The notes under the pieces are model-generated. The model made no database searches. It was not told the DNA's origin and saw only the letters and a list, made by a program, of their open reading frames with translations. A DNA stretch of 64,000 bases from Erythrobacter sp. (lineage in GTDB: Bacteria; Pseudomonadota; Alphaproteobacteria; Sphingomonadales; Sphingomonadaceae). Location: positions 496,001 through 560,000 of the forward strand of contig JAILWQ010000001.1 in the NCBI GenBank assembly GCA_025698865.1, given 5' to 3'. Below, piece after piece: positions 1 to 4,264 of this stretch; the stretch's first letter is position 1; the number at the start of each line of letters is the position of its first letter. The position numbers were made by a program, and so were the translations under genes.

Positions 1-1226
1 CAATGCTGAGCGACCCACATCTGGTGCTGGCCGACATCGCAGGCGGCGACGAAGCTGTCTCCGACCCGCTCCGACAGGTCTTTCAGCAAGGCGGGCGCGT
101 AGACGCCATTGCCCGGCGCATCGTATCGCGGCGCATGAGTTTCGCGCGCGGCCATGACGTCACTGCGCCAGCCATCGATCTCGCCCGGCTCGAAGTCGAT
201 CGCGACCAGGCTCGATTTGAGATTGCTGCAGACCGGCGCATGGGCATGGCGCAGCTTGCCCATCTCCGCGGCGTCGACGTCGATATGGACGATCGCGGCG
301 TGGGGCGCGAACTCGGCGAGCTTGCCGGTCGCCCGGTCGTCGAACCGCGCACCGACGACGATCAGCAGGTCGCATTCCTGCACTGCCATGTTCGCCGCGC
401 GGTGGCCGTGCATTCCCAGCATTCCGAGCATGGCGGGATGGCCGGACGGCAGGACGCCCAGCCCCTGCAATGTCGCGACCGCCGGGATGCCGCTGTCCTC
501 GACCAGGCGGCGGACCATCTCCGTCGCGTTGGACCGGGCGATCCCGCCGCCGAGATAGAAGAGCGGCTTTTCGGCCGCCGCGATCAGCCGCTCCGCCTCG
601 GCGATGGCCTCGGGCGCCGGTGCGGACAGGACCTGCGCCTCGCCGCGCCACTTGCCGGGCGGGGTGCAGCTCGCCTGCTGGACGTCCTTGGGCAGGTCGA
701 CCAGCACCGGACCGGGGCGCCCGCTCTCGGCGATGGCGAAGGCTTCGCCCAGCGCCGCCGGAATATCCTCGGGCCGGCGGACGATGATCGAATGCTTCAC
801 GATCGGCATGGTCATGCCGAAGATGTCCGTCTCCTGAAACGCGTCCGTGCCCATGAACGGCTGCGCGACCTGACCGGTGATCGCCACCATCGGGACCGAA
901 TCGAGATAGGCGTTGGCGATCCCGGTGATGAGGTTCGTCGCGCCCGGGCCGGAGGTGGCGAGGCACACCCCGGCCCGCCCCGTGATCCGGCCATAGGCAT
1001 CCGCCGCGAAGGCGGCCGCCTGCTCGTGCCGGACGAGGATGTGGCGCGTCGAACCGGCGGTGATCGCATCGTAGACCGGCATGATCGCACCGCCGGGATA
1101 GCCGAACACGCATTCGACCCCGAGCGCGTCCAGCGTGTCCACCACCAGCTGCGCGCCGGTACGGGTGGCTGGGCGAGTGGCAGGCCCGGTTTCGGGAATG
1201 GTGATGGGCTGGGGCATGACGGTCAT
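1..1226 (-). CDS. ilvB: Acetolactate synthase large subunit (3' end truncated by window edge)
   Basis: Minus-strand reading from ATG at 1226 gives MTVMPQPITIPETG...GAQLVVDTLDALGVECVFGYPGGAIMPVYDAI...TSGPGATNLITGIANAYLDSVPMVAITGQV, a ThDP-dependent AHAS signature; it runs off the left edge and follows ilvC. Confidence 0.95.
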   Translation of the reverse strand, partial: MTVMPQPITIPETGPATRPATRTGAQLVVDTLDALGVECVFGYPGGAIMPVYDAITAGSTRHILVRHEQAAAFAADAYGRITGRAGVCLATSGPGATNLITGIANAYLDSVPMVAITGQVAQPFMGTDAFQETDIFGMTMPIVKHSIIVRRPEDIPAALGEAFAIAESGRPGPVLVDLPKDVQQASCTPPGKWRGEAQVLSAPAPEAIAEAERLIAAAEKPLFYLGGGIARSNATEMVRRLVEDSGIPAVATLQGLGVLPSGHPAMLGMLGMHGHRAANMAVQECDLLIVVGARFDDRATGKLAEFAPHAAIVHIDVDAAEMGKLRHAHAPVCSNLKSSLVAIDFEPGEIDGWRSDVMAARETHAPRYDAPGNGVYAPALLKDLSERVGDSFVAACDVGQHQMWVAQH

Positions 1227-1261: not shown

Positions 1262-2278
1262 TCAGGCGGCCTTCTTCGCGCTCTTCTTGTTGGCCTCAAG
1301 CCACGGCATCATCGCGCGCCGCGCGCGTCCGGTGGCCTCGATCGGGTGATCGAGATCGGCCTTCTGCATCCGGTCGTATTCGACTTTCCCGGCCTCGTTC
1401 TCGGCGATCCAGTTCTTCGCGAAGGTACCGTCGCGGATGTCGCTCAGCACGTCGCGCATCCGGGCGCGCGTCTCGTCGTTGATGACGCGCGGGCCGGAGA
1501 CGAGATCGCCGTAGATCGCGGTCTCGGAGATGAATTCGTGCATCTTGGCAAAGCCGCCTTCGTAGAGCAGATCGACGATCAGCTTCAGCTCGTGCAGGCA
1601 TTCGTAATAGGCGATTTCGGGCGCGTAGCCGGCATCGACCAGCGTCTCGAACCCGGCCGCGACCAGTTCGGTCGCCCCGCCGCACAACACCGCCTGTTCG
1701 CCGAACAGATCGGTCTCGGTCTCCTCGCGGAAAGTGGTCTCCAGCGTGCCCGCCGTCGTCCCCCCGATCAGGCTGGCATAGGCGAGTGCCTTGGCCGCCG
1801 CATCGCCGCTCGCATCCTGATGGACCGCGAACAGGCAGGGGACGCCCGCGCCGCGTTCGTATTCGCGGCGGACCAGATCGCCCGGCCCCTTGGGCGCGAC
1901 GAGGATCACGTCGATCTCGGCAGCGGGCTTGATCCGTTCGTAGAGAACGGTGAACCCATGCGCGACCAGCAGCGCGTCGCCTGCTTCCATGTGCGGCGCG
2001 ATCTCGCTGGCGAAGATCGCCTCGTGGCTCATGTCGGGCGTCAGCAGGGCGACGAGACCGGCGGCCTTAGCGGCCTCGGCAACGGGCATGGTCTTCAGCC
2101 CGTCGGCCTGAGCCTTCGCCGCGCTGGGCGATCCGTCGCGCAGGCCGATAATGACATCGCAGCCGCTGTCCTTGAGATTGAGCGCGTGGGCACGGCCCTG
2201 GCTGCCGTAGCCGATGACGGCGACCGGGCGGGACTTGACCTTGGCGGGTTGCGCGTCGCTGTCGGTATAGACTTTCAT
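1262..2278 (-). CDS. ilvC: Ketol-acid reductoisomerase
   Basis: [50 protein letters not shown]...; internal start in ORF 1262..2524; 338 aa. Confidence 0.95.
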
Positions 2279-2292
2279 GGATCGGGATTCCT

Positions 2293-3969
2293 TCACTTCG
2301 TGACGGGTGGAATGGTCGTCGCGCCGTAAGCGGCGGACGAGACGAGACGGGCGTATTTGTCGAAGACGCCGCCCAGGCGATTGGGCTCGCGCGGCGTGTG
2401 GGCGGCGCGGCGCGCCTCCCAGTCGATGTCGGCGTCGATCCGCCGGGTCTCGGCATCGATGCGGATCGTGTCGCCTTCCGCGATCAGCGCCAGCGGCCCA
2501 CCGGCGGCGGCTTCGGGCGAGCAATGTCCGATGACGAAGCCGTGGCTCGCGCCGGAAAAACGCCCGTCGGTGATCAGCGCGACCTTGCCCGCCAGACCCT
2601 GTCCGGCGAGCGCGGCGGTCACTGCCAGCATCTCGCGCATTCCCGGACCGCCCGAGGGACCTTCGTAGCGGATGACGACGACGTCGCCCTCGCGGATATC
2701 GTTGGCGTTGACGGCGGCGAAGCAGGCTTCCTCCCCATCGAAGACCCGGGCCGGACCCTCGAACGATCCCGTGCCGTAACCGGCCGTCTTGAGCACCGAG
2801 CCCTCGGGCGCAAGGTCGCCGTAGAGGATGCTGAGACCGCCGGTCGCCTTGACCGGATCGGCGGGCGAGCGGACCACCTGCTGGCCCTCTGTCTCCTGCG
2901 CTTCGGCCAGTTCGGCGAACAGGCTGCGGCCGGTGGCGGTGGGCGTGTCCTCCAGCATTCCGGCATCGGCCAGACGCTTGCCGAACAGCGGGATCCCGCC
3001 CGCCGCGAACAGGTCGCGAGCAAGGAACCGTCCGCCGGGCTTCAGATCGGTGATGACCGGCACGCTGCGCGACAATTCGTCGAAGATCTCGATCGGGAAA
3101 GCGAAGCCCGCCTCCGCCGCGATGGCCGGCAGATGGAGCACGGCATTGGTCGAACCGCCGCTCGCGACCACTGCGGTCGCCGCATTGCGCAGGGATGCGG
3201 GGGTGACGAATTCGCGCGCCGAGACGCCTTCATGCGCCAGCTTTGCCGCCAGTCTGCCGCAGCGCGCCGCCTCGACGCTCTTGGCCGCGTGCGTCGCGGG
3301 CGGATCGCCCGAGCCCATCGGGCTGATGCCCATCATCGCCAGCGCCATCGCCATTGTGTTGGCAGTGAACTGGCCCCCGCAGGCGCCTGCTCCGGGACAG
3401 GCGGCGCGCTCGACGCGGTCGAGCTCGGTATCGCTCATATCGCCCTTGGCATGGGCGCCGACCGCCTCGAACACGTCCTGGATCGACAGGTCGCGCCCGT
3501 CGAGCCGGCCGGGCATGATCGTGCCGCCGTAGAAGACGAGGCCGGGAATGTTGAGCCGCGCCAGCGCCATGGCGGCGGCAGGAATGGTCTTGTCGCAGCC
3601 GACCAGGATCACCGCCGCATCGAGCGAGTGGCCCTTCACCGCCAGCTCGATCGAATCCGCGATGATCTCGCGACTGATGAGCGAGGCGCGCATGCCCTCG
3701 CCGCCCATGGTGATCCCGTCGGACACGACGATGGTGTTGAAATCGACCGGCGTCGCGCCGGCACCGCGCAGACCCTCGCGGATCGGTTCGGCGAGGCTCG
3801 CCAGATGCATGTTGCAGGGCGTGACGGTCGACCAGGTGTTGACCACCGCGACCATCGGCTGCGCCATCTGCGCGTCGGTGAAGCCCGCCCCGCGCAGCAT
3901 CGCCCGCGCCGGCGCCTTCGCCGGCCCTCTGGTGATCGCGTCAGAACGTTTGTGAGGCGTATCGGTCAT
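2293..3969 (-). CDS. ilvD: Dihydroxy-acid dehydratase
   Basis: 558 aa; [49 protein letters not shown] motifs of the IlvD/Edd family. Confidence 0.95.
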
Positions 3970-4010
3970 TCGTGTTTCGTCCCGGAGCTGAAGCCACCGC
4001 AGGACGGACC

Positions 4011-4050
4011 CAACAAAAAACCCCGCTGTCCTTTCGGAGAGCGGGGTTCC
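4011..4050 (-). terminator. Rho-independent terminator/attenuator in the ilvD leader
   Basis: Minus strand: AACCCCGCTCTCCGAAAGGACAGCGGGGTTTTTTGTTG; arms 4040-4048 and 4019-4027, then a U-run, 42 nt before the ilvD ATG. Confidence 0.8.
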
Positions 4051-4071
4051 GGGAGGTCCGTCAGGCTTGGC

Positions 4072-4188
4072 TCAGCCGATGGGCACTCCCCCCCGCTCGA
4101 TAAGAAGTACGAGTACGAGAATCAGCACGAGGCCCAGCGCCTGAAGCACCGTGCCTTCGTTCATGGTGATGGCGGCCTGAGCCTGCAT
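4072..4188 (-). CDS. Candidate ilv leader peptide (38 aa, run of 11 consecutive Leu/Val/Ile codons)
   Basis: MQAQAAITMNEGTVLQALGLVLILVLVLLIERGGVPIG*; SD-like GAGGA 7 nt upstream of the ATG; directly upstream of the attenuator hairpin. Confidence 0.65.
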   Translation of the reverse strand: MQAQAAITMNEGTVLQALGLVLILVLVLLIERGGVPIG

Positions 4189-4234
4189 CGACGCGTCCTC
4201 GCACAAGCAGCGGAATTGCTGCGGTGGCGAGCTG

Positions 4235-4264
4235 TTTATATCCCCGACATGAAAGATCAAGCAA
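4235..4264 (-). promoter_or_regulatory. Candidate sigma70-type promoter for the ilv leader (TTGCTT-N18-TATAAA)
   Basis: Minus strand TTGCTTGATCTTTCATGTCGGGGATATAAA. Confidence 0.4.

Follow-up and report, generated by a model that had tools for sequence, protein, structure and literature searches.

A probable ribosome-mediated attenuator of the ilvL type ahead of an ilvD-ilvC-ilvG-ilvM-leuACDB operon in Erythrobacter sp. and its relatives

The ilvD gene in the window (the whole 64 kb stretch of Erythrobacter sp. DNA analysed here) is preceded on the minus strand by a leader region that very probably works as an ilvL-type transcription attenuator controlled by the ribosome. A short open reading frame (ORF) containing 11 Leu/Val/Ile (L/V/I) codons without interruption (4131-4099) is followed by its stop codon, an intrinsic terminator and then the ilvD start at 3969, and the end of the ORF is complementary to the 5' arm of the terminator. 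The region had been described in the initial annotation, and that description matches the minus-strand sequence base for base: the ORF with its Shine-Dalgarno (SD) sequence, the codon run and the terminator hairpin with its T6 tract ahead of ilvD were read exactly so (Table 1), and the complementarity of GAGCGGGG with CCCCGCTC, said to be perfect, is exact. Leader-peptide attenuation of this branched-chain amino acid (BCAA) operon by the ribosome, as proposed there, is strongly supported by conservation, by changes in the terminator that are matched in the antiterminator, and by codon bias.

Table 1. Coordinates of the leader region and of the operon genes within the window.
Feature	Position	Strand	Remarks
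-35-like TTGCTT	4259..4264	minus	18 nt from the -10; as TTTTTGCTTG in relatives; read by eye
-10-like TATAAA	4235..4240	minus	conserved among relatives; read by eye
5' hairpin CTCGC/GCGAG, inner GCAGC/GCTGC	4198..4231	minus	overlaps leader SD
Shine-Dalgarno GAGGA of leader ORF	4200-4196	minus	7 nt ahead of ATG
Leader ORF MQAQAAITMNEGTVLQALGLVLILVLVLLIERGGVPIG	4188-4072	minus	38 codons + stop; putatively translated; TGA stop at 4074-4072
Regulatory codon run CTC GTG CTG ATT CTC GTA CTC GTA CTT CTT ATC	4131-4099	minus	
Antiterminator 5' strand	4086..4098	minus	GAGCGGGG (4098-4091) + GGGAG (4090-4086)
Antiterminator 3' strand	4039..4055	minus	CTCCC (4055-4051) + CCCCGCTC (4046-4039); overlaps terminator 5' arm
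Outer helix 5' strand GACGGACC	4055..4062	minus	
Intrinsic terminator hairpin GAACCCCGCTCTCC-GAAA-GGACAGCGGGGTTT	4049-4018	minus	-22.2 kcal/mol
Terminator U tract (T6)	4020-4015	minus	
Outer helix 3' strand GGTCCGTC	4003..4010	minus	past the U tract
ilvD, first operon gene	2293..3969	minus	
ilvC	1262..2278	minus	
ilvG-type acetolactate synthase II large subunit	1..1226	minus	extends past window end

The 64 kb window, read in six frames, has no run of at least eight L/V/I codons other than that of the leader; in shuffles such runs came to 0.03 for at least eight codons and 0 for at least 11. A simple pattern scanner reported no promoter over the leader region, nor did it pick up the terminator at 4049-4018, the latter probably because of a 1x1 mismatch in the stem. 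The 5' hairpin is kept in close relatives, with z-scores that vary and are weak for the window sequence itself. Upstream of the leader start of the closest relative (L004), about 28 bp (CAATTCTGCTGCGTGTGCGAGGATA) are duplicated in tandem, which doubles part of this hairpin together with the SD. Upstream of ilvD in one clade of the Sphingomonadales (L126-L129 and L131-L133) about 10 nt separate the end of a -10-like box from the leader ATG (e.g., TTGACA, spacer, TATCCT, GCACCCATG in L127), so that the leader peptide may be translated from a leaderless mRNA in these loci.

The leader, the codon run, the terminator and the pairing of the leader with the terminator arm are found again in over 30 genomes, belonging to the Erythrobacteraceae, the Sphingomonadaceae, Parvularculales-like lineages, Brevundimonas and the Xanthomonadaceae. 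An L/V/I leader with terminator stands ahead of ilvD in Citromicrobium, Erythrobacter, Alteriqipengyuania, Novosphingopyxis, Marinicaulis, Aquisalinus, Parvularcula, Euryhalocaulis, Brevundimonas and two members of the Xanthomonadaceae (L050, L052). Conservation across the Sphingomonadales had been proposed as a check, and among 401 genomes of the order this type of ilvD was found in 15, with an L/V/I leader and terminator upstream in 14 of them. Within the genus of the window, this ilvD is found in one other genome out of 60, at 98% identity across the N-terminal 140 residues; most other genomes of the genus have an ilvD version at 41-47% identity, and no L/V/I leader was found upstream of that version in the 28 loci examined. 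In Sphingomonas parva and relatives the element is found ahead of ilvC-ilvG-ilvM-leuA instead, and in several Parvularculales-like genomes the leader is still present although ilvC is followed by an acetolactate synthase gene of the ilvI/ilvB type (41-44%); the element thus follows the operon and not one gene.

Two other elements were seen in the course of this comparison. Six further members of the genus (L168-L173) have no L/V/I leader upstream of the acetolactate synthase gene; about 100 nt ahead of this ilvI/ilvB-type gene, directly after a TTGACA-like promoter, they share a conserved GC-rich hairpin (GTCGGCCCGGCGCT ... AGCGCCGGGCCGATTT) with a loop that ends in GACCCC. An Rfam search with this hairpin gave no convincing match (one sub-threshold match to a microRNA family, at one locus). 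It is a different, putative element for the BCAA pathway. In one locus of the Sphingomonadales (L125:918-1043, minus strand) a SAM riboswitch aptamer (RF00162, 79.8 bits) is found near the ilvD leader, at a distance of a few hundred bases.

The predicted antiterminator helix of the window consists of two parts, GAGCGGGG/CCCCGCTC and GGGAG/CTCCC. In 33 leaders that were compared, the distance from the leader stop to the start of the terminator is 21-39 nt, and in all of 24 lineages the last part of the ORF pairs with the terminator 5' arm. Complementary pairs with altered sequence include GGAAGCGG/CCGCTTCC (L048), GGTGCGG/CCGCACC (L052) and GGAGGAAGCA/TGCTTCCTC (L125). When partners were swapped between lineages, own partners paired better than swapped ones (permutation p = 0.035), a test that has little power because the terminator arm is so conserved; synonymous-codon controls in single lineages gave p values of 0.02-0.5. 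All these p values are optimistic because the lineages share ancestry.

The choice of synonymous codons sets the run apart. GUA makes up 31 of the 58 Val codons in the runs (53%) vs 6 of 466 in the adjacent ilvD genes (1.3%; odds ratio 88), CUU 48 of 110 Leu codons vs 25 of 450 (odds ratio 13) and AUU 24 of 36 Ile codons vs 70 of 385 (odds ratio 9). Ahead of the run, codon use in the leader is ordinary (GUA in 2 of 18 Val codons), and among the leader parts and the adjacent ilvD the rare synonymous codons are enriched in the run only. GUU and AUA are not enriched in the runs, so the bias is not simply one for A/T-ending codons. Owing to kinship the p values of this bias are optimistic, and its effect sizes are not in doubt. 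Attenuators are known to show a strong codon bias toward the isoacceptor most sensitive to limitation (PMC1183508). Among the tRNA genes of the genome, those for Val(UAC), Val(GAC) and Val(CAC) and those for Leu(GAG), Leu(CAG), Leu(UAG) and Leu(UAA) each occur once. Within the run windows 85% of the residues (204/240) are L, V or I, the interruptions being R, S, T, P, E or N, and L, V and I swap freely with each other among the leaders of relatives.

These features bear on a caveat raised at the outset, namely that the ORF might encode a small hydrophobic membrane peptide that lies upstream of ilvD by chance, the terminator ending its own transcript. The hydrophobic run would fit this idea, as would the apparently functional SD and start codon, but the charged and polar interruptions, the free exchange of L, V and I, and rare synonymous codons confined to the run, for which a protein would have no need, speak against such a peptide, as do the maintained distance to the terminator and the maintained complementarity with it. 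This caveat can largely be dismissed, and we regard a membrane peptide as extremely improbable.

The logic of an attenuator is that of a classical control device in which slow translation of a decoy leader gene should switch the pathway on. The ORF, the codon run, the terminator, the complementarity, the conservation, the codon bias and the operon are all seen in the sequence, and from this arrangement we infer a transcription start, translation, stalling, termination and a response to starvation as follows. The promoter at about 4264-4235 would make the leader RNA. When charged Leu-, Val- or Ile-tRNA runs short, the ribosome would stall in the codon run (4131-4099) and leave 4098-4086 free to pair with 4055-4039 once the latter is transcribed; with this antiterminator formed, RNA polymerase would continue into ilvD-ilvC-ilvG-ilvM-leuA-leuC-leuD-leuB. 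With charged tRNAs the ribosome would get to the stop codon (4074-4072) and cover about 4090-4060, so that no antiterminator could form, the terminator (4049-4018) would fold and transcription would end near 4015.

Equilibrium folding was dropped as a test of this switching because it does not discriminate: the terminator prevails in nearly all states, including that with a stalled ribosome in the window sequence. Since the terminator wins at equilibrium, the switch would have to be kinetic. When the RNA was folded as it stands before the terminator 3' arm is made, the mean predicted antiterminator fraction was 0.69 for the best stall codon vs 0.25 for a ribosome at the stop codon; the window alone gave a weaker contrast (0.54 vs 0.37), and E. 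coli ilvL gave 0.75 vs 0.01. The equilibrium result, which gives no ribosome-dependent switch for the window, could suit an attenuator in which the hairpins sense a ligand, a protein or the speed of RNA polymerase and the ORF is incidental, and a conserved 5' hairpin and an outer helix (see below) do exist. Against this, codon identity and the rare-codon bias are the best-conserved part of the ORF, and an Rfam search with the region and the leaders of relatives gave no family at gathering score; control without the ribosome is accordingly judged very unlikely.

The operon downstream encodes the Val and Leu pathway, whose end products are matched by the leader codons. An ilvD-ilvC-ilvB gene order had been assigned to it: ilvD, ilvC and an acetolactate synthase gene do follow each other in this order, but the operon goes on to leuB (ilvD-ilvC-ilvG-ilvM-leuA-leuC-leuD-leuB, the part beyond the window being read from L033) and the supposed ilvB is an ilvG-type AHAS II gene. 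The large subunit matches the AHAS II model PRK08978 with 850 bits (cut-off 738) and is 55% identical to E. coli IlvG, 44% to IlvB and 42% to IlvI. The small subunit encoded after ilvG is IlvM-like (92 aa), with a score below its curated cut-off. A search of the genome found no second ilvD or ilvC and no second acetolactate synthase large subunit over the cut-off. The AHAS II (ilvG/ilvM) type is rare among alphaproteobacteria, the ilvG type occurring in two of the 289 genomes sampled, the window's own genome included.

A further helix is predicted around the terminator, formed by GACGGACC (4062-4055) and GGTCCGTC (4010-4003). It recurs with altered sequence in several leaders of Erythrobacteraceae and Parvularculales-like lineages (e.g., ACGGACCTCCG/CGGAGGTTCGT in L043 and GGACCTCC/GGAGGTCC in L048); among the leaders compared, one clade of the Sphingomonadaceae and the Xanthomonadaceae show no sign of it. 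The swap test gave p = 0.005 for this helix and shuffles over all lineages p = 0.018; shuffles of a subset of lineages chosen post hoc gave 1e-5. The helix cannot aid termination, because the polymerase has already passed the U tract when it makes the 3' strand, and any role in the read-through message is speculative. One such reading, which we consider doubtful, is that GACGGACCTCC, just before the terminator, would be held in the antiterminator while the polymerase is upstream and would re-pair with GGTCCGTC after read-through, the leader chiefly sensing tRNA-Val(UAC) and tRNA-Leu(GAG). Re-pairing beyond the U tract would refold the message as a long hairpin that might protect or process the mRNA, or free the ilvD start. 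In L043, L044 and L048 the 3' strand of the helix could, by eye, alternatively pair at the ilvD ribosome binding site (e.g., GTCCGTTC/GAACGGAC in L044), a possible translational switch.

The initial annotation took the leader to be an independent alphaproteobacterial version, i.e., one that became ilvL-like through convergence. Short peptides carry little information, and by a covariance model built from alphaproteobacterial leaders only, E. coli ilvL scores 23.8 bits, within the range of unrelated terminators. That model was dropped as proof of homology with ilvL, as ordinary GC-rich terminators score too (background terminators in genomes reach about 31 bits), and its scores were for the same reason trusted only above about 40 bits. 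However, the same leader precedes ilvD or ilvC in Xanthomonadaceae (L050, L052) as well as in Sphingomonadaceae, and the operon carries an AHAS II of the gammaproteobacterial type. Moreover, in L134 the peptide has an ending (...VVLVLIIIPSKGAEPEPAS) similar to that of E. coli IlvL (...SVVVIIIPPCGAALGRGKA), and GAGCGGGG/CCCCGCTC is one compensated pair apart from GTGCGGGG/CCCCGCAC of E. coli. Because the AHAS II operon, the members in the Xanthomonadaceae and the ilvL-like motifs come together, shared ancestry with the gammaproteobacterial ilvL-ilvG unit appears to be the better reading; common descent of the leader with E. coli ilvL is likely, the likeness of the motifs being judged by eye, and the claim of independent origin is not upheld, convergence seeming rather unlikely.

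The marine Erythrobacteraceae and their relatives thus appear to use a classical attenuator over a whole Val/Leu superoperon, a control element that stays with its operon despite a change of the acetolactate synthase gene and probably also through gene transfer. The very strong preference for GUA and CUU, confined to the run and seen in GC-rich genomes, offers clean natural data bearing on the theory that an attenuator relies on whichever tRNA isoacceptor reacts most sensitively to starvation.

The ilvBN attenuator of Caulobacter was reportedly described by Tarleton et al. in 1994, and Vitreschak et al. are said to have predicted alphaproteobacterial ilvIH attenuators with BCAA leaders by comparative genomics (FEMS Microbiol Lett, 2004); the latter predictions reportedly concern ilvIH, unlike the element of the window. 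The kind of control is classical; it is well supported here, in a lineage and operon for which no earlier description of it was found in the literature consulted. The leader of Caulobacter crescentus ilvBN (ilvIH) has Ile and Val codons in tandem as well as a terminator and acts by attenuation (PMC4117421), so that BCAA attenuation is not new in alphaproteobacteria. By that description it is, as here, an alphaproteobacterial BCAA leader with terminator before an acetolactate synthase operon, but it controls ilvBN only and not an ilvD-ilvC-leu operon. The ilvD motif WRC-18-2, a structured RNA upstream of ilvD found only in Veillonella and a weak riboswitch candidate, has, unlike the leader of the window, no leader peptide described (PMC8632094). 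With E. coli ilvL (ilvGMEDA) the leader shares the L/V/I codon run, an AHAS II operon, an antiterminator strand, predicted in the window, within the last part of the leader ORF (GTGCGGGG in E. coli) and a terminator, which in E. coli lies 22 nt past the stop and has an apex, CCGAAAGG, identical to that of the window. It differs from E. coli in that ilvD comes first, ilvE and ilvA are absent and leuACDB follows, in codons that favour GUA and CUU, in the outer helix and in the low overall sequence identity of the two leaders.
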